The notes under the pieces are model-generated. The model searched no databases, had not been told where the DNA came from, and saw nothing but the letters and a program-made list of their open reading frames with translations. 11,450 nt of DNA from NCBI GenBank assembly GCA_030665705.1, contig DAOUZG010000026.1, forward strand, positions 1 to 11,450. The letters run 5' to 3'. The DNA is from Deltaproteobacteria bacterium (GTDB lineage: Bacteria; Myxococcota_A; UBA9160; SZUA-336). A program made the translations under genes and the position numbers. Below, piece after piece: positions 1-11,450 of this stretch; within the stretch, counting starts at the first letter, position 1; every line of letters starts with the position of its first letter.

Positions 1-690
1 AACACGCGGTCGTGGACGTCCTGGGGCACGCCGGGACCGTCGTCCTCGATCTCCAGGTACACCTGATCGTCCTCGACACCGGTGCGCAACGTGATCGTGC
101 CGGCCCGCCGCACCGAGCGGATGGCCTGCTCGGCGTTGTTCAGCAGGTTGAGGATCACCTGGTCCATCTGGTGGAAGTCGAAGCTCGTCCGGGGCAGGCG
201 CGGGTCCAGCTCGAGGTCGATCTCGATCTGCGACGAGCGCAGGTGGTACGATTTAAGGTCCAGTACCTTCTCGACGCACTCGTTCAGGCTCTGCTCTTTT
301 TTCTCGGGCGCGTGCTTGCGCGCGAAGGACAGAAGCTTGAACACGATCTTCTGGCAGCGCAGGGCCGACTCGACGATGCGTTGCAGGTCGCGGATCTGAG
401 CGGGGTCGCTGGCCTGTCCGCGCAACAGCTCGGCGTAGCCCACCACGCCGGACAGCGGGTTGTTCAACTCGTGGGCCACACCGGCGACGACCTCGCCCAG
501 GCTGGAGAGCCGCTCGGCCTGGGCCAGGCTCTTCTCCACCCGGCGCAGCTTGGTCACGTCGCGGCCGATCCACACCCGGCCGACCTCGTTTTCGCTGTCG
601 TCGGTCAGCGCGGCGCTGACCAGGCTGACCTCGACCGACTTGCCGCCGCCGCGATCCAGCATCAGCTCCAGCGGAGTCGCCGGGTCGGGC
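1..690 (-). other. Histidine kinase portion of the frame: half PAS, HisKA, start of HATPase_c (fused or chimeric)
   Basis: This section shares the ileS reading frame but encodes a sensor kinase. From about 670 leftwards, DRGGGKSVEVSLVS and GRVWIGRDVTKLRRVE look like the last strands of a PAS domain and its link to the kinase core; the first half of the PAS domain is absent. HisKA follows, with GVAHELNNPLSG; the likely phospho-accepting His codon is at 473-471 (fusion residue 1115). The N-box NLLNNAEQAI begins at codon 149-147, and the G1 box DDGPGV lies near 43-28. The remaining ATP-binding motifs are beyond the window. Leucine codons here are mostly CTG (hand count about 21 CTG, 3 CTC), whereas the last ~230 IleRS codons prefer CTC (about 14 CTC, 5 CTG), so this DNA probably has a different origin. 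The kinase domain identity is clear. Whether it belongs to this genome and this protein is doubtful. Confidence 0.85.
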
Positions 691-3600
691 GGTGCGTCGA
701 GCTCGGTTGCGAGGATCTCCGAGGAGATCCTCGCCGCGTGCGCCCGAATCGCCTCTCCGAGCTCCTCCTCCGTCTCGTATCGGACACGGATACGCGCCTC
801 GTACGCGAGGTCCATCTCCTTGCGGGCGCGCTGAACTCGGTTCACGACCTCACGCGCGAGGCCCTCCCGTCGAAGCGCATCGGTGATTCGGGTGTCTAGC
901 ACGACCACACGGCCGCCCTCCGCGGCGGCGGCGAACCCCTCGCGCGCCGTCAGGCGAACTTCGATGTCGTCGCCTCGCAGCGTCACGCTCCCGTCTTCGA
1001 GCTGGAGCTCGATCTCACCTCGGCGGTCGAGTTCTTGGAAGAGCGCCGTTCCGTTCGACTGCTCGAGCGCCTGTTTGACGAGCGGTACCCGCCTGCCGAT
1101 CCGGGGCCCCAGCGCACGGAAGTTGGGCACCAACGCGAACTCCACGTACCGCTCCGGCTCCTCCGTGAAGGTGAGCGCGTGCACGTTGAGCTCCTCGCGA
1201 ATCGGCTCCTCGAAGCGCGCGACTCCGTCCCGGTCCTCTCTGCCCGCCACGACGATGATGGCCTCGGCGAGGGGCTGACGTACCTTCAGCCGATGGGCGC
1301 CGCGAACCCGCTGCCCCAGCGTCACGATGGCGCGGACCCGGTTCATGTCCGTCCGTAGCTCCTCGTCGACACGCTCCGGCCGGGGCTCGGGATAGGGGAC
1401 GAGATGGACCGAGATCGGAGCGCTTTCATCGACCCCACGGACCAGGTTCTGGTGGATCGATTCCGCGATGAAGGGGACGAAGGGAGCGGTCAGGCGGGAG
1501 AACTCCACCAGCACCTCGTAGAGCGTCGAGAAGGCGGCATGCTTGTCCGTCGAGTCGGCCTCGGCCCAGAAACGGGCTCGGCTCCTGCGTACGAACCAGT
1601 TGGAGAGCGCCTCCGCAAACGCCGCGACGCGGCGCGCGGCGGGATAGCTTCGGGAACCGTCGAGGGAGACCCGCACGTCGCGGAGGGTGGCATCGAGCTC
1701 GGCGAGGACCCAGCGGTCGAGATCGGTCCGCTCGCCCAGGGCGGGGCGATCCTGGCTTGGATCCCACTGGTCGATCCGGGCATAGGTGACAAAAAAGCTG
1801 TAGACGTTCCAGAGCTTGAGCAGGAAGTCGCGCAGGGCCTCGACCGCGCCGCCGCGGTAGAGGCGCGTGCTCTGTCCCGGAACGCAGGAGACGTAGAGCG
1901 ACCAGCGCATCGCGTCCGCACCGTGCTCGGCAATGAGGTCCAACGGATCTTCGTAGTTCTTCTTCGACTTCGAGAGCTTCTGGCCGCGCTCGTCGGAGAT
2001 CAGACCCTGCACGACACAGGTGCGGTACGGGTGAGGGTATGCAGCCTCCGGAAATAGCAGCGTGCTGACTGTGAGAAGCGAGTAGAACCAGCCTCGCGTC
2101 TGGTCGAGGGCCTCCGTGATGAAGTCGGATGGGAAGGTTTTCTCGAACTGCTCGCGGTTTCGGTGCGGATAGCCCCACTGCGCAAACGGCATGCACCCCG
2201 AGTCGAACCAGCCGTCGACGACCTCGGGCACCCGGCGGTAGACGCCGGGCTCGCCCGGACGGGTCCAGGTCACCTGGTCGATCCAGGGCTTGTGAACGCG
2301 CAGGTGAGGGGACAGATCGGGGTCGCCCTCCCGCGCTTCCTCGAAGTGTCTGAACGCGTCGGGGTTGCGCGCCAGGATCTCCTGAACCGAGTCGACCGCC
2401 TCCATCCGGCCCGTCTCGTCGTTCACCCAGATCGGAAGCGGGGTTCCCCACCAGCGCTCCCTCGACAGCGCCCAGTCGACGTTGTTGCGCAGGAAGTCCC
2501 CGAACCGACCCTCGCGGATGTGCTCGGGCTCCCAGTGGATCTGCGCGTTATTCGCGATGACCCGTTCGATCTCGGCAGTCGTGCGGATGAACCACGAGCG
2601 CCGCGCGTACTGAATCAGCGGATCGTCCTCTGCCCGCCAGCAGAACGGGTACTCGTGGCGCTCTACGCCCTCGGAGTAGAGAAGTCCACGCTCTCGCAGG
2701 TTTCGGATGATGTCCCGGTCGGCCTCCTTGCAGAAGCGCCCGGCGAAGTCGGTTGCCTCCGGTCGGAAGCTTCCGTCGGGCTGCACGAGCTGCAGGAAGC
2801 CGAGCCCTTCCTCCCGGGCCACCCGGAAGTCGTCCTCGCCGAAAGCGGGGGCGATGTGGACGACGCCGGTGCCGGTATCGAGCGTGACGAAGTCTGCGGC
2901 GATCACCTCGTAGGCACGGCCCCCCTCCGGCTCCCCGTACCGGAAAAGCGGTTCGTAGCGCGTGCCCACGAGTGCCTGGCCCGGTTGCTCCGCCACCACC
3001 CGATGAGGACGATCTCCCAGGACCTGCTCAGCCAGGGCGCGCGCCAGTACCAGCCGCTCGCCGTCTTCGGTCTCGACCGTGACGTAGGGCTCCGAGGGGT
3101 GAACGGCGAGCGCGACGTTCGATGGGAGTGTCCAGGGTGTCGTCGTCCAGCTGAGTAAAGACGCGTTCGGCTCTCCGACGCTCCGGAAGCGGACGACGAT
3201 CGACGGATCGTCGACCGTCTTGTAACCCTGACCGACCTCGCCGGAGGAGAGCGCCGTTCCTCCCTGGGGCCACCACCAGACCACCTTGTAGTCCTGGTAG
3301 AGGAGGTCCTTCCGAAACAGCTGCGCGAGCGCCCACCAGACGCTCTCCACGTAAGGCTCGTGGAACGTGACGTAGGCATCGTCGACGTCGATCCAGAACC
3401 CGATCCGCTCCGTCATGCGACGCCACTCGTCGATGTAGCGGAAAACGGACTCGACGCAGCGCCGCGTGAACGCGTCCACTCCGAAGCGCTCGATCTCGAT
3501 CCGCCCGTGGATTCCGAGCTCCTTCTCGACCTCGACCTCGACCGGGAGCCCGTGCGTGTCCCACCCTCCGCGTCGGGGGACGTCGTAACCGGACATCGTG

Positions 3601-3815
3601 CGGTAGCGGAGGAAGAGGTCCTTGAGCACTCGCCCCAGCACGTGGCCGGGGTGCGGCATCCCGTTCGCGGTCGGAGGGCCCTCGTAGAAGACGAAAGGAG
3701 GCTTGCCCCGTCCCTGCTCGACCGACTTCTCGAAGACGCGCTCCTTCTTCCACAAATCGAGCCAACGTTCCTCGAGGTCCGGGAACCGAACGTTGGGCGA
3801 GACCGGTTCAAACAT
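1..3815 (-). CDS. ileS: Isoleucyl-tRNA synthetase, type 2, continuing in frame into a partial sensor histidine kinase; 3' end off the left edge
   Basis: Charges tRNA-Ile with isoleucine in the cytoplasm and edits mischarged valine. The ATG is at 3815-3813. At residues 55-58 HPGH is the class I HIGH motif, in the context PTANGMPHPGH. The CP1 editing domain shows WTTTPWTLPSN from residue 223 and HIAPAFGEDD at 320-329. GQKLSKSKKNY carries the KMSKS loop (KLSKS, 613-617). The anticodon-binding region contains LKVRQPL, and the C-terminal domain has EGLAREVVNRVQ. Layout and motifs match the eukaryote-like IleRS2 type, usually near 1040 residues; this type is often mupirocin-tolerant (inference). 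I read the frame codon by codon from about 1380 to the left edge, and checked landmarks in the rest, without meeting a stop. After about residue 1040 the protein is no longer IleRS: the last ~25 residues expected of IleRS2 are missing and PAS/HisKA/HATPase sequence follows. The gene is divergent from gatB. The IleRS assignment is firm; the fusion may be an assembly chimera. Confidence 0.9.
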   Translation of the reverse strand, partial: MFEPVSPNVRFPDLEERWLDLWKKERVFEKSVEQGRGKPPFVFYEGPPTANGMPHPGHVLGRVLKDLFLRYRTMSGYDVPRRGGWDTHGLPVEVEVEKELGIHGRIEIERFGVDAFTRRCVESVFRYIDEWRRMTERIGFWIDVDDAYVTFHEPYVESVWWALAQLFRKDLLYQDYKVVWWWPQGGTALSSGEVGQGYKTVDDPSIVVRFRSVGEPNASLLSWTTTPWTLPSNVALAVHPSEPYVTVETEDGERLVLARALAEQVLGDRPHRVVAEQPGQALVGTRYEPLFRYGEPEGGRAYEVIAADFVTLDTGTGVVHIAPAFGEDDFRVAREEGLGFLQLVQPDGSFRPEATDFAGRFCKEADRDIIRNLRERGLLYSEGVERHEYPFCWRAEDDPLIQYARRSWFIRTTAEIERVIANNAQIHWEPEHIREGRFGDFLRNNVDWALSRERWWGTPLPIWVNDETGRMEAVDSVQEILARNPDAFRHFEEAREGDPDLSPHLRVHKPWIDQVTWTRPGEPGVYRRVPEVVDGWFDSGCMPFAQWGYPHRNREQFEKTFPSDFITEALDQTRGWFYSLLTVSTLLFPEAAYPHPYRTCVVQGLISDERGQKLSKSKKNYEDPLDLIAEHGADAMRWSLYVSCVPGQSTRLYRGGAVEALRDFLLKLWNVYSFFVTYARIDQWDPSQDRPALGERTDLDRWVLAELDATLRDVRVSLDGSRSYPAARRVAAFAEALSNWFVRRSRARFWAEADSTDKHAAFSTLYEVLVEFSRLTAPFVPFIAESIHQNLVRGVDESAPISVHLVPYPEPRPERVDEELRTDMNRVRAIVTLGQRVRGAHRLKVRQPLAEAIIVVAGREDRDGVARFEEPIREELNVHALTFTEEPERYVEFALVPNFRALGPRIGRRVPLVKQALEQSNGTALFQELDRRGEIELQLEDGSVTLRGDDIEVRLTAREGFAAAAEGGRVVVLDTRITDALRREGLAREVVNRVQRARKEMDLAYEARIRVRYETEEELGEAIRAHAARISSEILATELDAPPDPATPLELMLDRGGGKSVEVSLVSAALTDDSENEVGRVWIGRDVTKLRRVEKSLAQAERLSSLGEVVAGVAHELNNPLSGVVGYAELLRGQASDPAQIRDLQRIVESALRCQKIVFKLLSFARKHAPEKKEQSLNECVEKVLDLKSYHLRSSQIEIDLELDPRLPRTSFDFHQMDQVILNLLNNAEQAIRSVRRAGTITLRTGVEDDQVYLEIEDDGPGVPQDVHDRV
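711..732. repeat. Perfect 10-bp inverted repeat with 2-bp spacer beside the IleRS/kinase junction
   Basis: The + strand reads GAGGATCTCC, then GA, then GGAGATCCTC. The two arms are exact reverse complements. It lies inside the last recognisable IleRS codons (encoding RISSEIL), roughly 15-40 bp on the IleRS side of the point where homology changes to a histidine kinase. It may be chance in GC-rich coding DNA, or a fold-back point that promoted a chimeric join during amplification or assembly. Confidence 0.6.
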
Positions 3816-3875
3816 GCGCGCGAAAGTAGCACAGTCCCCGAGCGCGACCGGGGGGGCGGTGGTAGCCTGTGGTGC
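3816..3875. promoter_or_regulatory. Divergent promoter region between ileS and gatB, possibly leaderless on both sides
   Basis: Only 60 bp separate the two start codons, so promoters for both genes must lie here or just inside the coding sequences. On the + strand TAGCCT (3863-3868) ends exactly 7 nt before the gatB ATG. On the - strand TACTTT (3828-3823), preceded by TGC as in an extended -10, also ends exactly 7 nt before the ileS ATG. Both match TANNNT, the -10 form seen 5-8 nt upstream of leaderless starts in several bacterial groups. Neither gene has a clear Shine-Dalgarno in front of its ATG. Transcription start positions are inferred, not seen. Confidence 0.4.
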
Positions 3876-5360
3876 ATGGGCGCCAAGCCTTCAACCGAGA
3901 GCGAAGGGGCAGTCCTCCCGGCAGGATGGGAAGCGGTCATCGGCCTGGAGGTGCACGTCCAGCTCCGCACCCGCACGAAGCTGTTCAGTGCGGCGCCGAA
4001 CGCCTTCGGGGCTGAGCCCAACACACAGACCACCGAGGTGGACGTGGGAATGCCCGGCGTACTCCCCGTCATGAACCGTCGTGCGGTGGAGCTGGCCGTA
4101 CGCACCGCGCTCGCGCTCGGGTGCGAGCTCCAGCCGGTCTCGTTCTTCGCCCGGAAGCACTATTTCTACCCCGACCTTCCGAAGGGCTACCAGATCTCCC
4201 AGTACGAGGAGCCGTTCGCGACCGGGGGCGGGGTCCCAATCGAACGCAACGGCGAGCAGCGGACGGTGCCCCTTGTTCGGATCCACATGGAGGAGGACGC
4301 CGCGAAGAGCATTCACGACGACTCGATCACCGGAGCCGGCGTGAGCCACGTGAACCTCAACCGCGCTGGCGTTCCACTCATCGAGATCGTCTCGACGCCG
4401 GAGATCCGGACCCCGGAGGAGGCCGGGGCCTACCTGCGGAGCCTCCGCTCCATCGTCCGGTACCTGGAGGTCTCCGATGCGGACATGGAAAAAGGGCACC
4501 TGCGCTGCGATGCCAACATCTCGGTGCGGCGGAAGGGGGAGACCGAGCTCGGCACCAGGGTGGAGCTCAAAAACCTCAACTCCTTCCGGTACGTCGAACG
4601 CGCGATCGCGTACGAGATCCTCCGGCAGGTCGAGCTGATCGAGGACGGCGGGAGCGTGGTCCAGCAGACCCGGCTCTGGGACGACCGGGCCGGGGAGAGC
4701 CGGTCGATGCGGAGCAAGGAGTACGCGGACGACTACCGGTACTTCCCGGACCCGGATCTCGTGGCGCTGCGGCTCGAGCCGGAGTGGCTCGACGAGATCC
4801 GACGAAACCTTCCCGAGCTTCCGCAGGAGCGACGCCAGCGGTTCGGGGACGAGTATGGGCTTCCCGCCTACGACGCCCAGGTGCTGACGGACGACCGGGG
4901 TGTTGCGGACTTCTTCGAGGCGGTGGCGCGCCTGTACGACAGTCCGAAGACCGTTTCCAACTGGGTCATGCGGGATGTTCTCGGAGCCCTGAACGAGCGT
5001 GGGCTCGGGATTCGGGAGGCCAAGCTCACCCCCGAACACCTGGTGGAGCTTCTCCGTCTCGTTGACGAGCGCCGCGTAACGGCTGCCATTGCACGGGACG
5101 TGCTCCCCGAGGTCGTGGAGTCGGGTACGTCGCCTGCCGCCGTGGTGCAGGCGCGTGGACTCGAAGCGGTTCGCGACACGGGAGAGCTCGAGGCCATCGC
5201 CGCCGAGGTCATCGAGGCCAACCCCAAACAGGTGGGGCAGTACCGGGGCGGGCAGGAGAAGCTCGTGAACTTCTTCGTCGGCCAGGTCATGAAGCGGACG
5301 AAGGGCAAGGCGGATCCGAACCTGGTGAAGGAGATCCTGGCCCGCCTCCTCGCGGGCTGA
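3876..5360 (+). CDS. gatB: Asp-tRNA(Asn)/Glu-tRNA(Gln) amidotransferase subunit B
   Basis: GatB is the kinase/transamidase and tRNA-binding subunit of the cytoplasmic GatCAB complex, which converts Glu-tRNA(Gln) and/or Asp-tRNA(Asn) to the amidated forms. The 494-residue product matches the usual family length. Visible landmarks include VIGLEVHVQLRTRTKLF near the N terminus, KHYFYPDLPKGYQISQYE, the family signature NLNRAGVPLIEIVSTPE (from about residue 160), KGHLRCDANISVR, ELKNLNSFRYVERAI and SKEYADDYRYFPDPDL. The C-terminal YqeY-like tRNA-binding domain ends with KLVNFFVGQVMKRTKGKA and NLVKEILARLL. The reading frame is open upstream to 3360, but homology begins just after the ATG at 3876, and further extension would overlap ileS. 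It has no strong Shine-Dalgarno; a -10-like hexamer lies 7 nt upstream. gatA and gatC are not in the window, so this gatB stands apart from them, which is common outside operon-type arrangements. Confidence 0.96.
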   Translation: MGAKPSTESEGAVLPAGWEAVIGLEVHVQLRTRTKLFSAAPNAFGAEPNTQTTEVDVGMPGVLPVMNRRAVELAVRTALALGCELQPVSFFARKHYFYPDLPKGYQISQYEEPFATGGGVPIERNGEQRTVPLVRIHMEEDAAKSIHDDSITGAGVSHVNLNRAGVPLIEIVSTPEIRTPEEAGAYLRSLRSIVRYLEVSDADMEKGHLRCDANISVRRKGETELGTRVELKNLNSFRYVERAIAYEILRQVELIEDGGSVVQQTRLWDDRAGESRSMRSKEYADDYRYFPDPDLVALRLEPEWLDEIRRNLPELPQERRQRFGDEYGLPAYDAQVLTDDRGVADFFEAVARLYDSPKTVSNWVMRDVLGALNERGLGIREAKLTPEHLVELLRLVDERRVTAAIARDVLPEVVESGTSPAAVVQARGLEAVRDTGELEAIAAEVIEANPKQVGQYRGGQEKLVNFFVGQVMKRTKGKADPNLVKEILARLLAG

Positions 5361-5397
5361 TCCGTCGTTCCGCGCCCCTGGGGGGCCCTTGCGGATC
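5359..5397 (+). terminator. Possible GC-rich hairpin after gatB
   Basis: The sequence starting at the gatB stop codon can fold. GATCCG (5359-5364) pairs with CGGATC (5392-5397), and inside it GCCCC (5374-5378) pairs with GGGGC (5382-5386) around a 3-nt loop. There is no T-run after it, so it is not a classical intrinsic terminator. It sits where a terminator would be expected, between gatB and the separately regulated operon. Confidence 0.35.
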
Positions 5398-5410
5398 GTG
5401 CGGGTAGGTG

Positions 5411-5438
5411 GTAACATACCGACTGGTCGGTTTATAAA
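5411..5438 (+). promoter_or_regulatory. Candidate promoter of the tetR-led operon, overlapped by operators
   Basis: TATAAA at 5433-5438 resembles a -10 box. GTAACA at 5411-5416 is a weak -35 candidate with a 16-bp spacer. The -10 lies at the centre of the perfect palindrome 5421-5448, so a bound regulator would directly exclude RNA polymerase. A transcript starting near 5445 would carry the remaining two operator copies in its leader. The promoter is inferred from hexamers only. Confidence 0.45.
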
Positions 5439-5477
5439 CCGACCAGTCAGTTCGACTAGTCAGTTCGATTAGTCAGT
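5418..5477. promoter_or_regulatory. Cluster of four TetR-type operator-like 14-mers in front of the tetR gene
   Basis: Four related palindrome-like 14-mers occur: ACCGACTGGTCGGT (5418-5431), ACCGACCAGTCAGT (5438-5451), TTCGACTAGTCAGT (5451-5464) and TTCGATTAGTCAGT (5464-5477). Sites 1 and 2 start 20 bp apart, about two helical turns, and together form a perfect 28-bp palindrome at 5421-5448 centred between 5434 and 5435. Sites 2, 3 and 4 start 13 bp apart, so this part also reads as a 13-bp direct repeat of AGTCAGTTCGA(C/T)T. Short GTCGGT-type palindromes just ahead of a tetR gene are the usual autoregulatory operators of the family. The bound protein is most likely the product of the gene starting at 5496. 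Confidence 0.8.
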
Positions 5478-5495
5478 TGATCGTCAGGAGGGGAG

Positions 5496-6131
5496 ATGTT
5501 GCAATCCCCGCGCTCCCCCCGCGTAGGCACGCGCGTCGTGGCCGACGTCCGGCGGCAGGAGATCCTCGACGCCGCCCAGGCCTGCTTCCGTGAGAGCGGC
5601 TACCACGGCACCACGGTCCAGGATGTCGCGGCCCACGCAGGACTGTCTAAGGGCGCGATTTACTGGCACTTCAAGGGCAAGCGAGAGGTCTTCCTGGCTC
5701 TGCTCGAGCGCTACGTCAACTCCCTGCTCGAGCGCTACGCCGATTCCTTCCGGGAGGCCAGCCGTCCAACAAGCGGAGGAACGGTCTCGGCGATGGAGGC
5801 CCTCCGGTGCATGGTGGAAGCCATAGGGCCCCAGGAGTCGTTCGAGTGGGTGGAGCTGAGCCTCGAGTTCATGGCTCACGCGGGCCGCGATCCCGATCTG
5901 CGAAAGCTCCTCCTGAACATGTACCGCGCACTCCGCGGAGCGGTTCAGCACCACATCGAGCGGGGCATCCGGGAGGGGCAACTGCGGTCCATCGATGCGG
6001 CCGCATTCGCTGCGGCTGCCGTTGCCACGCTCGATGGACTGGTGGTGCAAAAGGTGATCGAGCCGGATCTCGACCTCGCCTCTCTCTGGCGAGAGGCGGT
6101 GGACGTTCTGGTACGGGGGATCGAAGCGTGA
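5496..6131 (+). CDS. TetR/AcrR-family transcriptional regulator, first gene of the envelope-transport operon
   Basis: A 211-residue DNA-binding repressor of typical TetR length. Residues about 19-65 form the TetR_N domain, starting RRQEILDAAQACFRESGYHG. The helix-turn-helix is TVQDVAAHAGLSKGAIYWHF (about 40-59), followed by KGKREVFLALLERY. The remaining residues form an all-helical ligand/dimerisation domain of low conservation, so the inducer cannot be named. The ATG at 5496 has an excellent Shine-Dalgarno, AGGAGG at 5486-5491. Its stop codon overlaps the next start by 4 nt, so the regulator is translated with the transport genes it presumably controls, and its own promoter carries four operator-like sites, implying negative autoregulation. 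A 24-bp near-exact tandem duplication (5700-5723 and 5724-5747) encodes LLERYVNS then LLERYADS in helix 4. Confidence 0.95.
   Translation: MLQSPRSPRVGTRVVADVRRQEILDAAQACFRESGYHGTTVQDVAAHAGLSKGAIYWHFKGKREVFLALLERYVNSLLERYADSFREASRPTSGGTVSAMEALRCMVEAIGPQESFEWVELSLEFMAHAGRDPDLRKLLLNMYRALRGAVQHHIERGIREGQLRSIDAAAFAAAAVATLDGLVVQKVIEPDLDLASLWREAVDVLVRGIEA
5700..5747 (+). repeat. 24-bp tandem duplication inside tetR
   Basis: The two 24-bp units, 5700-5723 and 5724-5747, share their first 16 bases exactly and differ at only three of 24 positions. They encode the 8-residue units LLERYVNS and LLERYADS in frame, so the duplication lengthens the helix that joins the DNA-binding and ligand-binding domains without breaking the frame. 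Confidence 0.7.
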
Positions 6132-6904
6132 GTCGAACCGTTAGAACTGTGCTGCTGGCAATGACGCTCGCGACAACGGCCTCCGCGGGGGAGTGGACGG
6201 CGGAGGAGCTCGTTCGCAGAGCGGAGGACATTCTTCGTGGGTCGACCGCAGAGATGACGGCGACGATGACCGTCAAGACGCCGCGCTGGACCCGCGAGCT
6301 CAAATTCCACTCGTGGGACGACAAGAGCGGGGACCGGAGCTTCGTGCGCATCCTCTCACCCCGCAAGGACCGGGGAACCGGCTTCCTCCGGCAGGGGCTC
6401 CACCTCTGGACCTACCTCCCCCGTGTCGAGCGGGTCATGCGGATCCCCGCCTCGATGATGCTGCAGCCCTGGATGGGGAGTGATTTCACGAACGACGATC
6501 TGGTTCGGGAGTCTTCCTTCGTCGAGGACTACGTCCCGAAGAGGCTCGGCGAGATGGAGCTGGACGGCGTGCCGCTCGTCGGTCTCGAGCTCGTCCCGCA
6601 CGAGGACGCCCCGGTGGTCTGGGGGCGGGTCGAGATGTGGATCGAGCGTGAACGGTTCGCACCACGGCTCTTTATCTACTTCGAGGAGGCCGACGCGGGC
6701 GAGTTCGCGAAGGTCCGCACGCTGCGCTTCGACAAAGTGCGTATGGTGCAGGGGCGGCCGCTCCCGCACTTCTGGGAGATGATTCCGGAGGACAAGCCGG
6801 ACCACCGCACCACGATCGTTGTGGAGACGATGCGCTTCGATGAGCCCCTCGACGACGGGCTCTTCACCCACGAGAACCTGCGGCGTGCGGAGGGCGCACG
6901 TTGA
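6128..6904 (+). CDS. Exported LolA-like protein (outer membrane lipoprotein-sorting protein family)
   Basis: A 258-residue periplasmic protein predicted to carry a hydrophobic ligand (lipid or lipoprotein acyl chains) between membranes. The GTG at 6128 overlaps the tetR stop (GTGA). It has a GGGGGA Shine-Dalgarno about 7 nt upstream and gives a good signal peptide: Arg residues, the hydrophobic VLLAMTLATT, and an ASA cleavage site before GEW at about residue 21. The mature part carries hallmarks of the LolA_like/DUF1329-type group: FVRILSPRKDRGTGFLR, LWTYLPRVERVMRIPASMM and PWMGSDFTNDDLVRESSFVE, followed by beta-rich sequence to the end. Relatives of this type usually accompany RND (MMPL) or ABC exporters and an outer-membrane barrel rather than acting as the housekeeping LolA. 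The next gene begins in the TTGA overlap, so the carrier is translationally coupled to the permeases. Confidence 0.88.
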   Translation: MSRTVRTVLLAMTLATTASAGEWTAEELVRRAEDILRGSTAEMTATMTVKTPRWTRELKFHSWDDKSGDRSFVRILSPRKDRGTGFLRQGLHLWTYLPRVERVMRIPASMMLQPWMGSDFTNDDLVRESSFVEDYVPKRLGEMELDGVPLVGLELVPHEDAPVVWGRVEMWIERERFAPRLFIYFEEADAGEFAKVRTLRFDKVRMVQGRPLPHFWEMIPEDKPDHRTTIVVETMRFDEPLDDGLFTHENLRRAEGAR

Positions 6905-8145
6905 GGGTTCTCGTTCGGCTGGCGCTGCGAAACCTCTGGAGGAACCCCCGCCGGACCGCGCTGACGATCGGGGCGACCGTTTTTGCCGTCGGCATCACGC
7001 TCTTCACGGAGGCGCTTGCGACCGGGAGCCATAAGCGGTGGATCGACGAGATCGTCCGCCTCTACCCGGGACACGTGGAGGTCATGGCCCGGGGGTACCG
7101 GGACAACCGCACACTCGACTACGGGATGCGGCTCCCGGAGGATCGTATCCGCGCACTGGATCGCCTCGCAGGGGTGGAAGGCTGGGCCCCGAGGGTCGAG
7201 GCATGGGCGCTCGCCATGCCCGATCGCGAGGGCGCGCTCGGGCGCGCGGGGTGGCTCGTCGGAGTCGATCCCGAACGGGAACGCCGGCTGTCGAAGCTCG
7301 GAAGGTCGGTCCGGGAGGGACGCTTCCTCGATGGAACGCCCGAGAAGGGGGTGGTGCTCGGGACGCGCCTTGCGCGCGGTATGGGGGTCGGAGTCGGCGA
7401 CCCGGTGATTCTGCTGTCAACCGACTACTACGGCTCTCAGGCGGCAGACCGTTTCCAGGTCGTCGGAACCCTGGAGGTGGGGAACCCGGACTTCGACGCA
7501 GCGCTCGTCCTGCTGCGCCTCGACGAGGTTCAGCGTTTCCTCGAGTACGAGGATCACGTCTCGCACGTGGCGATCTTCGCAGAGCAGACGGAGGCCGCCC
7601 TGGAGCTCGCCGGAGCCGTCGAGGGTCTGTTCGATCCCGTGGACTACGAGGTGATGGCCTGGCAGGAGCTCCTCCCGGAGCTCAGGCAGCTCATTCTTCT
7701 CGATGACGTGTCGGCTCATATCATGGTCGGGATCCTGATTCTGGTAGCCGGGTTCGGTCTGCTCAACAGCGTGCTGATGTCGGTCTTCGAGCGAGTGCGG
7801 GAGTTCGGGGTGATGCGGGCCATCGGCGCGCGTCCGCGCACTCTGTTTGCCGTGGTGCTCCTCGAAGCTGCCATGCTGGGGCTGATCGGGGTCATCCTCG
7901 GGCTCGTCGTCGGCATACCGGTCGTTCTCTGGTACGCACAGAACCCGATCGTGCTCTCGGGTGACTACGCGGCCGCCATGGAAGCCTTCGACATTGCACC
8001 GGTGATCGTGTTCGACCTCGATAGGAATAACCTCCTCGGAACTCCCCTGGTGATGTTCGTGGTGGCCATGCTCGCGGCACTCCCCGCCGCGGTGCGGGCG
8101 AGCCGCGGACAGCCCGTGGATGTGATGCGGGCACAGACGACATGA
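6901..8145 (+). CDS. ABC transporter permease, FtsX/LolC-E/MacB type (first subunit)
   Basis: A 414-residue inner-membrane permease with the four-helix type VII ABC layout. TM1 is at about 18-40, followed by a large periplasmic domain (about 41-270), then TM2 (272-295), TM3 (313-343) and TM4 (382-400). The N terminus LALRNLWRNPRRTALTIGA and the cytoplasmic loop VFERVREFGVMRAIGARP after TM2 are family hallmarks; the loop contacts the ATPase. Such transporters do not pass substrate through a channel. They use mechanotransmission to extract lipoproteins (LolCDE) or drive periplasmic processes (MacB, FtsEX). The TTG start at 6901 is chosen because GGAGGG lies 6 nt upstream (6889-6894), it gives the 4-nt TTGA overlap, and homology starts at once. 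The next permease starts in an ATGA overlap. The gene is probably one half of a heterodimer. Confidence 0.92.
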   Translation: MRVLVRLALRNLWRNPRRTALTIGATVFAVGITLFTEALATGSHKRWIDEIVRLYPGHVEVMARGYRDNRTLDYGMRLPEDRIRALDRLAGVEGWAPRVEAWALAMPDREGALGRAGWLVGVDPERERRLSKLGRSVREGRFLDGTPEKGVVLGTRLARGMGVGVGDPVILLSTDYYGSQAADRFQVVGTLEVGNPDFDAALVLLRLDEVQRFLEYEDHVSHVAIFAEQTEAALELAGAVEGLFDPVDYEVMAWQELLPELRQLILLDDVSAHIMVGILILVAGFGLLNSVLMSVFERVREFGVMRAIGARPRTLFAVVLLEAAMLGLIGVILGLVVGIPVVLWYAQNPIVLSGDYAAAMEAFDIAPVIVFDLDRNNLLGTPLVMFVVAMLAALPAAVRASRGQPVDVMRAQTT

Positions 8146-9380
8146 TGCTCCTTCGTCTTGCGTGGAGAAACTTGATTCGCGGCTGGCGACGAAGCGCCAT
8201 CGTGATCGTGGCAATGGCGTTCGGCCTCGGGGCATCCCTGCTGCTTCTGGGTCTGTCCAAGGGGATGGTGAAGCAGATGACCGACACGGCCGTGCAGACG
8301 CAGCTCGGCCATATCGCGGTCCACGCCCGCGGCTACTTCGACAACCCCGACGTGAAGCGAAACCTCCCCCAGGGTGGGCAAGCCGTGCTCAAGCGGCTGC
8401 GTGAACGGTCGGAGGTCGCGGCATCTGCGCGTCTGCGGGGGGACGGTCTGGTCCAGAGCGCCCGTCACAGCGCCCGTGCCTTCTTCATCGGTGTTGATCC
8501 CGAGGCCGAGGCACGTGTCTCGAGCGTTCCTGGCTCGCTCATAGAGGGGAGTTTCCTCAGAGATGCACCGTCGGCGATCCGACGCGCGCGGAGACTGGCA
8601 CCCGTCGTGATCGGTCGGAAGATGACGGAGCGCCTCCGCGTCGGACTGGGAGACAAGGTGGTGCTCCATGCACCGGGAGAGACCGGGCTCGCTGCCTTCC
8701 GGGTCCGCGGGATCTACCGGACCGACTCCTCGGATTTCGACGGGTCTCATGTCTTTCTGCGTTTGCGGGACGCTCAGCGTCTCTTCGATATCGGGGATCG
8801 CGTAACCGAAGTCACCCTCGTCCTCGAGCGTCCGGGGCGTGCACGCAGCCTCCAGGCCTGGCTGGAACAGCACCTCCCGGGCTCGCATTACGAGGTCTTG
8901 CGTTGGCAGGAGCGGGCTCCTCGTCTCGCGGCAATGCTCGACTTGATGACGAGGATCTCCTGGATCTTTTATGGGGGGGTTTTCATCGCGATGGCGTTCG
9001 GCATTGCGAATGTGCTGTTCATGGCCGTCTTCGAGCGGATCCGGGAGTTCGGTGTGCTACGTGCAATGGGGCTCCAGCCGATGAGGCTCGTTTCGATGGT
9101 CCTTCTGGAGTCGGTGCTCCTGACGATGGCCGGGACCGCGGTCGGCCTCGCAGCAGGTTGGAGCCTGGTTGGCTGGTTCAAGGAGCGGGGGCTCGACCTC
9201 GCCTGGTTCGCCGAGGGGCTTCGTGCCTACGGAATCGGAACCGCGATCCACACGACCCTGGACGCAAGCGACCTGGTCTGGCCGGTCCTCATCGCGACGG
9301 TCACCGCGTTTGTTGCGGGGCTTGCGCCGGCCCTCCGGGCGGTGAGTCTCCGCCCAGCGGAAGCACTACGCCACACGTAG
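8142..9380 (+). CDS. ABC transporter permease, FtsX/LolC-E/MacB type (second subunit)
   Basis: A 412-residue paralogue of the preceding permease with the same layout: TM1 about 18-38, periplasmic domain about 40-270, TM2 about 272-296, TM3 about 315-345 and TM4 about 376-397. Shared elements include the start LRLAWRNLIRGWRRSA, QLGHIAVHARGYFDNPD (compare YPGHVEVMARGYRDN in the first subunit), YEVLRWQE at the end of the periplasmic domain, and the coupling loop VFERIREFGVLRAMGLQP. Two unequal adjacent permeases with one ATPase match a LolC/LolE-style heterodimer rather than a MacB homodimer, in which the ATPase is fused. The periplasmic domains differ from each other in charge and length, so the two halves may have separate roles in carrier docking and substrate extraction. 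An ATPase gene follows after 8 nt. Confidence 0.92.
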   Translation: MMLLRLAWRNLIRGWRRSAIVIVAMAFGLGASLLLLGLSKGMVKQMTDTAVQTQLGHIAVHARGYFDNPDVKRNLPQGGQAVLKRLRERSEVAASARLRGDGLVQSARHSARAFFIGVDPEAEARVSSVPGSLIEGSFLRDAPSAIRRARRLAPVVIGRKMTERLRVGLGDKVVLHAPGETGLAAFRVRGIYRTDSSDFDGSHVFLRLRDAQRLFDIGDRVTEVTLVLERPGRARSLQAWLEQHLPGSHYEVLRWQERAPRLAAMLDLMTRISWIFYGGVFIAMAFGIANVLFMAVFERIREFGVLRAMGLQPMRLVSMVLLESVLLTMAGTAVGLAAGWSLVGWFKERGLDLAWFAEGLRAYGIGTAIHTTLDASDLVWPVLIATVTAFVAGLAPALRAVSLRPAEALRHT

Positions 9381-9388
9381 GGGGAGTC

Positions 9389-10081
9389 ATGGGAAAGCAG
9401 GTCTTGGAAGGCGTCGAGCTGGTCAAGGACTACGAAACCCGATCCGTTAGCACGCGTGCGCTCGATGGCGTCTCTATGAGCATAGAGGAGGGAGAGTTCT
9501 CCGTGCTGGCCGGCCCGTCGGGCTCCGGGAAAACGACCCTCCTCAACCTACTCGGTACCCTCGACGCACCGACCTCCGGCCGCGTGTTCATCGACTCGAC
9601 GGATGTCTCGACGCTGAGCGAGGCGGAGCGTTCACGCCTGCGGCTGCAGAAGCTCGGCTTCGTCTTCCAGGCGTTTAACCTGATTCCCGTTCTGACGGCG
9701 GCTGAGAATGTCGAGTTCGTTCTGCTCCTGCAGGGGGTCGGGGGCGCAGAGCGCCGGAAGCGTGCGGTCTCCCTGCTGGGCGAATTCGGACTCGCGGAGC
9801 TCGCAAACAAGCGGCCTCCGGAGATGAGCGGGGGGCAGCAGCAGCGCGTGGCCGTGGCCCGGGCCATCGCTGCGGACCCGCGCATCGTGCTGGCGGATGA
9901 GCCGACCGCGAACCTCGACTCGAAGACCGCGGAGAGCCTCCTCGACCTGATGCTCGAGATGAACCGGCAACGAGGTGTGACCTTTCTGTTCAGCACGCAC
10001 GACCCCAGGGTCATGCACCGCGCTCGACGAATTCTTCATCTCGTCGACGGACGCATCGCCGAGGACGAGCGACGCGCGTGA
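9389..10081 (+). CDS. ABC transporter ATP-binding protein, LolD/MacB type
   Basis: A 230-residue cytoplasmic ATPase, the usual length for stand-alone LolD-type subunits, that powers the two adjacent permeases. All nucleotide-binding motifs are intact: Walker A GPSGSGKTT (residues 42-50), Q-loop VFQAFNLIPVLTAAEN, signature MSGGQQQRVAVARAIAADPR, Walker B IVLADEPTANLDS and H-loop FLFSTHDPRVM. NLIPVLTAAENVE with a LADEPTANLDS D-loop is typical of the LolD/MacB/FtsE branch. The frame is open further upstream (from 8903), but the ATG at 9389 is right: it directly follows a GGGGGAG Shine-Dalgarno, leaves an 8-nt gap after the permease stop, and begins just ahead of the first conserved strand. Its stop overlaps the next gene by 4 nt (GTGA). 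Confidence 0.95.
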   Translation: MGKQVLEGVELVKDYETRSVSTRALDGVSMSIEEGEFSVLAGPSGSGKTTLLNLLGTLDAPTSGRVFIDSTDVSTLSEAERSRLRLQKLGFVFQAFNLIPVLTAAENVEFVLLLQGVGGAERRKRAVSLLGEFGLAELANKRPPEMSGGQQQRVAVARAIAADPRIVLADEPTANLDSKTAESLLDLMLEMNRQRGVTFLFSTHDPRVMHRARRILHLVDGRIAEDERRA

Positions 10082-11319
10082 GAGGGGCTGCGGCGCTTGT
10101 ATTGCTCGCGCTCACCGCTGCACCTCTCCGCTCACCCGCGATCATGGAGTTCGAAGGGGAGGACTGGCAGGCCGAGCTTCGCGGTCACGTGCGCGTTCTG
10201 GGAACGTTCACGCGCGACGTGAGTGCGGACCGTTTCCTCGAGCGCGGCTCCACGCGCAAGCAGGACAGTGGCCTCCTGCTCGTACGCAACCGCGTGACAG
10301 CCCAGGGCGCCGTCGGGGATCGGCTCTTCGGGAAGGTCGCGTACGATACGGAGCTTCGCACCGGCTCGGCCCTGAACTCACTCGGATTCGAGGTCGCCAA
10401 CGAGATTGGCACACAGACCTGGCTCGACGCGGACCGAGTCTTCCACGAGGCCCCCGATGCCCACATGCGCCACGCCCTGTATCGTGCCTGGCTGCGCTAC
10501 GAAGGCGACCAATGGGATCTGACCCTCGGCCGACAACGGATCGCCCTGGGGCGCGGGCGCCTCTGGAACCCGACGGATCTCTTTAACCCGATCTTCCCGT
10601 TGGCGGTGGAGGGCGACCAGCGCATCGGTCAGGACGCGGCGGTCGGCCGCCTCCGGCTCGGTCGCACGCTGCACCTGGTCGGGATTTGGTCTCCGAAGGA
10701 CGATCCGGACCTTCACAGGGCAGCACTCCGTTTCGAGGTGCAGCGAAGGGAGATCGACGCCGCGCTCATGGTCGGACGCTTCCAGCAAGACTGGGTCTTC
10801 GGCGGAGATTTCGCGCTGAGCTTCAGGGGGGCTGCCATCCGCGGCGAGGCCACGTTCACCGATCTCGACCTCGGGGATCGGATCTGGCAGGTCGTCGGCT
10901 CGGTGGACTACAGCTTTCCGCTGGGGACGGGGCTCTACGTACTCGTCGAGCACCTCTTCAACGAGAACCTCGTCGACCCGGGCGCCTTTGCCGCACTGCC
11001 ACCTGGAGCGGGTCGCCGGGCTGCGCTCGAAACGTTCGTGCAGTCCCAGACCCTGTTTCTCAACCGCATCACGACCGTCGTTCGCAACCAGACCGGTTTC
11101 CAGGTCGGCTACGACCTGACGCCGATCCTGCGCAGCGACCTGCTCGTTCTGTACGACTGGCACGGTCCGAGCACCGCGATCGTGCCGGCGATCACCTACC
11201 AGTGGCTTCAGGACGTCGAGATCTCACTCGCGGCGCAGTTCTTCATCGGTCGGGATGAGCGGACCGAGTACGGGGACCGCACGACCCTGCTCATCCTGCA
11301 GGTGGATGCCTATTTCTGA
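10078..11319 (+). CDS. Outer-membrane beta-barrel protein, last gene of the ABC/LolA-like operon
   Basis: A 413-residue protein with outer-membrane barrel features. It has a short N-terminal signal-like segment (Arg-2, then AAALVLLALTAAPL; cleavage site unclear) and a long run of alternating polar/hydrophobic strands. Visible strands include WQAELRGHVRVLGTFTRDV, LFGKVAYDTELR, ALYRAWLRYEGDQWDLTLGR and GLYVLVEHLFNENL, and the final strand ends in aromatic ...DAYF, a C-terminal Phe as recognised by the BAM complex. The motif GRQRIALGRGRLWNPTDLFNP resembles porin-like barrels of the DUF1302/alginate-export kind, which elsewhere pair with LolA-like proteins and RND exporters. It starts at GTG 10078 within the stop of the ATPase gene, so it is coupled to the transporter and is the likely outer-membrane end of the pathway. 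Its 3' end overlaps the convergent PEP-CTERM gene by 10 bp. Exact family and substrate are unknown. Confidence 0.82.
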   Translation: MRGAAALVLLALTAAPLRSPAIMEFEGEDWQAELRGHVRVLGTFTRDVSADRFLERGSTRKQDSGLLLVRNRVTAQGAVGDRLFGKVAYDTELRTGSALNSLGFEVANEIGTQTWLDADRVFHEAPDAHMRHALYRAWLRYEGDQWDLTLGRQRIALGRGRLWNPTDLFNPIFPLAVEGDQRIGQDAAVGRLRLGRTLHLVGIWSPKDDPDLHRAALRFEVQRREIDAALMVGRFQQDWVFGGDFALSFRGAAIRGEATFTDLDLGDRIWQVVGSVDYSFPLGTGLYVLVEHLFNENLVDPGAFAALPPGAGRRAALETFVQSQTLFLNRITTVVRNQTGFQVGYDLTPILRSDLLVLYDWHGPSTAIVPAITYQWLQDVEISLAAQFFIGRDERTEYGDRTTLLILQVDAYF

Positions 11320-11450
11320 GGCTGGGCGGAGCCGGTACGGCGCCGGATTCCGAGGAGTAGGCCGATCCCTCCGATCAGGAGCGCGAGGCTGGTCGGCTCG
11401 GGGATCGGCTCGACAAAGCCGCGGTTGAAGTGCTGAAGGGTGTCGTCCAG
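11310..11450 (-). CDS. C-terminal tail of a PEP-CTERM sorting-domain protein (5' part off the right edge)
   Basis: Reading leftwards from 11450 gives 46 codons ending at a TAG (11312-11310). They contain VEPIPEPTSLAL, then a hydrophobic helix LLIGGIGLLLGI, then the basic cluster RRR. This is a textbook PEP-CTERM signal: PEP motif, transmembrane helix, arginines, near the C terminus. Such proteins are exported and their tails are recognised by an exosortase (EpsH/XrtA family), typically in Gram-negative bacteria that make exopolysaccharide. The tail after the arginines (TGSAQPQK) is slightly longer than usual. The functional part lies outside the window, so nothing can be said about its role. 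The gene converges on the barrel gene and overlaps its end by 10 bp. Confidence 0.85.
   Translation of the reverse strand: MDDTLQHFNRGFVEPIPEPTSLALLIGGIGLLLGIRRRTGSAQPQK

Follow-up and report, generated by a model that had tools for sequence, protein, structure and literature searches.

A conserved operon of a LolCDE-type ABC transporter, a LolA-like carrier and a porin-like barrel as a candidate export route for acylated small molecules

The export of small lipids and N-acyl amino acids from diderm bacteria is largely an open question. It is raised by an operon in a stretch of 11,450 nucleotides from a deltaproteobacterial genome (assembly GCA_030665705.1, contig DAOUZG010000026.1, positions 1 to 11,450; hereafter the window), which encodes a TetR-family regulator, a LolA-like periplasmic carrier, two permeases and an ATPase of an ATP-binding cassette (ABC) transporter, and an outer-membrane beta-barrel. 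What does such a set of proteins move, and in which direction? We think it somewhat probable that the operon serves the ABC-driven trans-envelope export of a hydrophobic, probably acylated small molecule, a reading in which we infer both the direction and the substrate. The features concerned are the following.

5421-5448, no strand assigned: perfect 28-bp palindrome ahead of tetR, candidate TetR operator
5496-6131, + strand: TetR-family regulator, operon gene 1 (PF00440 at 68.5 bits, TetR_C_6 at 57.5 bits)
6128-6904, + strand: LolA_like periplasmic carrier (PF17131), with a GTG start overlapping the tetR stop
6901-8145, + strand: permease 1, LolC/LolE-type FtsX with a periplasmic domain (PF02687, PF12704), with a TTG start overlapping the carrier stop
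8142-9380, + strand: permease 2, LolC/LolE-type FtsX (PF02687, PF12704), best model lolCE
9389-10081, + strand: LolD-like ATP-binding subunit (PF00005 at 115.7 bits)
10078-11319, + strand: outer-membrane beta-barrel, 18 strands in the predicted model, C-terminal Phe
3870-5360: gatB, upstream of the operon

The six genes from tetR to the barrel form one operon. Stops and starts overlap by 4 nucleotides at four of the five junctions (TetR/carrier, carrier/permease 1, permease 1/permease 2 and ATPase/barrel), and a gap of 8 nucleotides separates permease 2 from the ATPase. An earlier interpretation made from the letters without database searches (the sequence-only reading) had placed a candidate dedicated lipid-trafficking system at 6128-11319, and Pfam and NCBIfam matches, together with these overlaps, bore out its gene content and coordinates. 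Because the same gene order is kept in other genomes, it is far beyond chance.

A scan of genome contigs for the carrier gave 89 confirmed loci, 80 of which were kept; the permease, ATPase and barrel genes that make up the module with it were called there by phmmer searches that used the window proteins as queries and a threshold of 30 bits. The commonest order was carrier-ATPase-fused permease-barrel (43 loci), followed by carrier-permease-ATPase-barrel (9 loci) and the order of the window, carrier-permease-permease-ATPase-barrel (7 loci), with other or truncated sets in the remaining 21. In 58 loci the sequence continues for 5.5 kb or more beyond the carrier (the other 22 are shorter there and were excluded); the permease is present in 55 of these 58, the ATPase in 57 and the barrel in 55; the barrel is missing despite sufficient room in L016, L026 and L086. 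By record title these loci come from Burkholderiales and other Betaproteobacteria, Gammaproteobacteria (Marinobacter), Omnitrophota, Calditrichota, Ignavibacteria, Marinimicrobia and Planctomycetes (Rhodopirellula), among others. The module is thus spread over many phyla, and its permease may be encoded by one gene, by two or by a fused gene. The heterodimeric LolC/E-like permease of the sequence-only reading describes the two LolC/E-type genes of the window and is no requirement of the module, which has a single permease gene in Omnitrophota and one fused gene in Proteobacteria. An origin of the fused permeases from the two subunits was considered and rejected, the halves of 44 fused permeases giving inconsistent assignments to permease 1 and permease 2 (N1/C2 15, N2/C1 6, both 1 6, both 2 17).

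Within the host's class, the barrel is encoded by 38 of 90 genomes (22 of the 42 of good quality). Loci from 30 of these 38 genomes were read, with a larger region examined for 20. All 30 have the ATPase immediately before the barrel; in 28 the ATPase stop codon still overlaps the barrel start (NTGA), and in 29 a permease precedes the pair, the one remaining locus lying at a contig end. The homologue lists of barrel and permease (120 listed of 188 and 120 of 218) have at least 16 'longest contig' lengths in common, which fits linkage. Whether the barrel is conserved with the other genes had been fixed in advance as a check on the sequence-only reading, which came through it on both the 58 loci and the class loci.

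The carrier has a signal-peptide-like N-terminus in its sequence, and its sole match in the Pfam scan is PF17131 (160.7 bits, cut-off 30), with no match to the LolA family PF03548. Its solved relatives are 3buu (the best, E 1.1e-12), 9tp6, 3bk5 and 4z48, and 3buu, 3bk5 and 4z48 belong to the LolA superfamily. Against plasmid records it gave 7 matches, all below 60% identity. Both permeases combine FtsX and MacB_PCD domains, and lolCE is the best NCBIfam model of each (122.9 bits for permease 1 and 113.1 bits for permease 2, below the cut-off of 362.45); likewise, LolD is the best model for the ATPase, which reaches 224.5 bits against a cut-off of 307.75. The predicted structure of permease 1 (predicted local distance difference test, pLDDT, of 93.5) has LolE (9rlc_E, E 9.4e-25) and LolC (7mdx_A, template modelling score 0.72) as top Foldseek matches, with MacB behind.

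The module thus resembles LolABCDE in having FtsX-type permeases of the LolC/LolE fold, a LolD-like ATPase and a soluble carrier of the LolA superfamily, but it scores far below the Lol cut-offs, has a PF17131 carrier and puts a barrel in the place of LolB. A further difference is that its own host has separate Lol genes, which was the other check fixed beforehand. The host assembly (2.0 Mb in 338 contigs, 76% complete) contains one PF03548 LolA (contig C67, 75.6 bits) and, on contig C329, a LolC/E gene at 358.4 bits, just below the lolCE cut-off. Next after the latter comes a frame for an ATPase similar to that of the module (150 bits), which we call LolD-type on this likeness rather than on a LolD-model score. 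Because the host has this separate LolA and LolC/E, the operon is not the housekeeping Lol system, in agreement with the sequence-only reading. There are four PF17131 genes in the host genome; the three besides the operon carrier (L006, L007 and L008, on C113 and C248) include a tandem pair on C113, and the short loci around these three contain no module permease, ATPase or barrel.

Could the operon nevertheless be a second Lol system, devoted to special lipoproteins, with the barrel as their acceptor at the outer membrane or cell surface? Such a role has been proposed for the BBJ23-29 cluster of Borrelia, in which a MacB/Lol-like ABC transporter and a LolA-like protein occur with an Omp85 barrel and for which lipoproteins are considered as cargo (PMC13078400). 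Of the known models and structures, LolC/E/F and LolD are indeed the closest to the permeases and ATPase of the window. Yet all three Lol-model scores are far below their cut-offs, the carrier belongs to PF17131 and not to PF03548, and no lipoprotein gene accompanies the module consistently, a lipoprotein-like gene following the barrel in the host's family only. We consider this explanation distinctly unlikely. The Borrelia cluster is nonetheless the nearest described system in the literature searched: like the module, it brings together ABC transporter, LolA-like protein and outer-membrane barrel, whereas its barrel is of the Omp85 type, its permease is homodimeric and it has two extra chaperone genes. 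The authors of that study report the seven-gene cluster in Borrelia only. No description of the combination of LolA_like carrier, ABC transporter and porin-like barrel was found in the literature searched, a set of partly accessible texts whose scope leaves aside subscription papers and preprints.

The barrel gave a single Pfam match, to Alginate_exp, at 21.2 bits and thus below the cut-off of 25.2, and had no match among PDB sequences. Its model is porin-like, with 18 strands and a conserved inward stretch at about residues 151-186. The nearest folds are those of OprD/Occ, with AlgE nearly as close, and no LptD-, FadL- or TolC-type structure is among the best 50 fold matches listed. Since OprD/Occ proteins are uptake porins, the barrel might admit a hydrophobic nutrient that the LolA_like carrier passes inward to an importing ABC transporter. 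We regard this as highly improbable: ABC systems of the LolCDE and MacB types are, as is established, exporters, and the nearly as similar AlgE exports alginate; the fold alone gives no direction. The module differs from AlgE and the Alginate_exp family in that its barrel is below the Pfam cut-off and is partnered by an ABC exporter and a LolA-like carrier, in an operon without polysaccharide synthase. With MacAB-TolC it has the FtsX/MacB_PCD permease fold in common, but in place of a fused ATPase-permease, MacA and TolC it has a LolA-like carrier and a porin-like barrel; no MacA-type adaptor, TolC/OEP domain or fused MacB ATPase was detected among the seven window proteins scanned.

The sequence-only reading had also suggested an ABC-driven counterpart of the resistance-nodulation-division (RND) systems that work with DUF1329 and DUF1302 proteins. 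According to two papers, AmeABCD of Castellaniella defragrans and PP_0765/PP_0766 have a LolA-superfamily protein with a DUF1302 barrel (PMC6394551, PMC10866462); the Pseudomonas putida example is PP_0765/PP_0766 with PP_2018/PP_2019. As in the RND/MMPL systems, through which hydrophobic compounds are thought to be moved, the module joins a LolA-superfamily periplasmic protein to a cognate barrel, and this barrel is remotely similar to DUF1302. The differences are that the module is powered by an ABC transporter instead of an RND (MMPL) protein, that its carrier belongs to PF17131 and that its barrel is not recognised by PF06980. The window barrel has no Pfam match to DUF1302 (PF06980) and one relative reaches 19.8 bits, below the cut-off of 23.2. 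A profile of 25 barrel sequences matched the DUF1302 profile with a probability of 88% in local and 97% in global mode, against 0.1% for a control, the local match spanning 41 columns only. We therefore rejected membership of the DUF1302 family, given the lack of a PF06980 match and the shortness of the local one, and regard the barrel as at most a putative remote relative of DUF1302/Alginate_exp. The suggested parallel accordingly fits the parts of the system and fails for the barrel as a DUF1302 member. The module works like a Lol or an RND/DUF1329/DUF1302 system yet fits membership of neither.

In the export that we favour, the LolC/E-type permeases and the LolD-like ATPase would extract the molecule from the inner membrane, as their homology and fold suggest, and the LolA_like carrier, judged by its family, would ferry it over the periplasm and hand it over. 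The barrel may then take the molecule at the outer membrane and insert or release it, a role that its fold and strict co-conservation point to. TetR would sense the compound or a relative of it and repress its own operon through the 28-bp palindrome.

A clue to the substrate comes from the neighbourhood of the nine loci with a single permease gene (L029, L038, L041, L042, L045, L060, L065, L070 and L072), eight of them titled Omnitrophota or Omnitrophica and one 'bacterium'. All nine have a divergent gene cluster facing the operon, and in all nine one or two genes per locus exceed the cut-off of TIGR03694, 'PEP-CTERM/exosortase system-associated acyltransferase' (11 proteins tested); the one such protein checked by Pfam matched PF13444/FeeM. 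The cluster also encodes a large AMP-ligase and acyltransferase protein (its domains were seen in L072 and L038, and it was assigned by clustering in the other seven) and two proteins of unknown or TPR type. Most of the nine loci further contain two-component regulators (a GAF histidine kinase and a sigma-54 response regulator), and in eight of them the gene after the barrel encodes a protein with weak similarity to PaaK. By coordinate arithmetic, all 15 TIGR03694 genes above the cut-off in these nine genomes lie near the module. No TIGR03694 match was obtained in L035, also titled Omnitrophota, where the contig ends within the module. The divergent cluster looks like a locus for lipid biosynthesis and its control; we take the pairing of acyltransferases in it to resemble the OlsB/OlsA steps of ornithine-lipid synthesis. 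Two papers describe TIGR03694-type genes as N-acyl amino acid synthases tied to PEP-CTERM/exosortase (PMC7293339, PMC4897644). The best substrate candidate for the Omnitrophota-type loci is an N-acyl amino acid or aminolipid.

From this we would tentatively generalise to a widespread class of systems, a possibility that we hold with reserve: small acylated lipids would be delivered by an ABC transporter of the LolCDE type, together with a LolA-like shuttle, to a dedicated porin-like barrel and by it to the outer membrane or through it. The cargo would be N-acyl amino acids or aminolipids in Omnitrophota and other lipids elsewhere, and the class would parallel the RND/DUF1329/DUF1302 systems with ATP as its energy source and offer a possible route for self-made surfactant lipids onto or past the cell surface. 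Elsewhere, the host included, the nine-locus link supports an 'acylated lipid' by extension only, and substrates probably differ between lineages. The sterol or hopanoid cargo of the sequence-only reading found no backing, the sole clue being the one to N-acyl amino acids or aminolipids, in another lineage only.

Several observations weigh against the export of an acylated molecule by the operon. The link to N-acyl synthases is limited to the nine loci, and TIGR03694 is absent from the host genome. In the host's class it is found in 11 of 90 genomes at E 1e-3, and the two that exceed the cut-off both lack the barrel; the short loci around these over-cut-off genes contain no module protein. Twenty-eight other genomes (27 of other clades and L035) include two with a strong TIGR03694 match, not adjoining the module, and no module protein was found near the strong copies in Hahella and Marinobacter. 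As a general partner of the module TIGR03694 was thus rejected, since class and other-clade genomes show no co-location. The neighbours of the operon in the host's class (tRNA synthetase, VWA, MgtE, GST-like and HtrA-like proteins) give no pointer to a lipid, and those in Betaproteobacteria and Marinobacter (CopA-like ATPase, FtsH, PEMT/ICMT, beta-propeller, BCCT, phosphoketolase and CMAS) suggest no common substrate. Lastly, permease 1 is shorter than LolC and LolF, in profile and pairwise alignments, at the presumed place of the LolA-docking Hook of LolC; the stretch found there is conserved in two sequence versions.

The regulator raises a further possibility, mechanistically close to lipid export and differing in substrate: that the system, induced through TetR, would expel toxic hydrophobic compounds (a solvent, terpene, bile-like compound or antibiotic) instead of delivering the cell's own lipids. 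It fits a tetR gene that opens the operon, and the RND analogue AmeABCD is reported as a monoterpene exporter (PMC6394551). However, among the 92 loci in which 800 bases or more precede the carrier, a TetR frame lies directly upstream on the same strand in 14 (11 of 20 class loci and 3 of 80 others) and is lacking in the other 78; nine loci are tied to genes of acyl-lipid biosynthesis, and the operon has neither MacA-type adaptor nor TolC. We judge toxic efflux rather unlikely. Because TetR was found in so few loci, mostly of the host's class, its control of the module is a local trait. The TetR-controlled operon of the sequence-only reading therefore holds mainly for that class; in the window, tetR and the palindrome are its first gene and the sequence ahead of it, both outside the coordinates originally proposed.

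The palindrome is likely the operator of this TetR, as predicted from its sequence and position: it scores 14, against a mean of 4.3 and a maximum of 9 in shuffles, and had no match in 200 shuffles. Its half-sites are partly repeated at 5440-5468 (2 matches, 0.28 expected), a number reached in 4 of 200 shuffles. A single genome, G001 of the same family, has a half-site in common with the window (CATACCGACTGGTC). A conserved TetR operator was rejected, the best palindromes of the other 14 TetR loci scoring 4-6.

Directly behind the barrel, on the minus strand (11320-11450) and running into the window end, lies a frame with a PEP-CTERM-like C-terminus (VEPIPEPTSLALLIGGIGLLLGIRRR). The operon might then carry PEP-CTERM proteins processed by exosortase, or the lipid anchor of such proteins, and the host does encode an exosortase; TIGR03694, too, is exosortase-associated. 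Exosortase (PF09721) is however found in 80 of the 90 class genomes, with up to nine matches per genome, as against 38 with the barrel, and their co-occurrence therefore says little. We give this route the slimmest of chances, and exosortase, too common in the class to discriminate, was rejected as a general partner of the module.

How a lipid product leaves the cell is touched on in the stieleriacine paper (PMC7293339), which states that putative transporters of the cluster might export the product and says nothing further. As the module is a compact, strictly conserved one-operon set that occurs in culturable genera (Marinobacter), it makes the question of lipid exit testable. If the proposed export holds, the Lol architecture would have been reused for small molecules, with a barrel replacing LolB as the acceptor.

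Two minor observations concern the surroundings of the operon. In the host's family (L131, L132, L133, L135 and L136), the next two genes after the barrel, oriented like it, gave no Pfam match; the first of them is lipoprotein-like, with what we read as a transglutaminase-like DCDG motif. At the other end of the window, positions 1-3400 are GC-rich, with long overlapping open frames on both strands.

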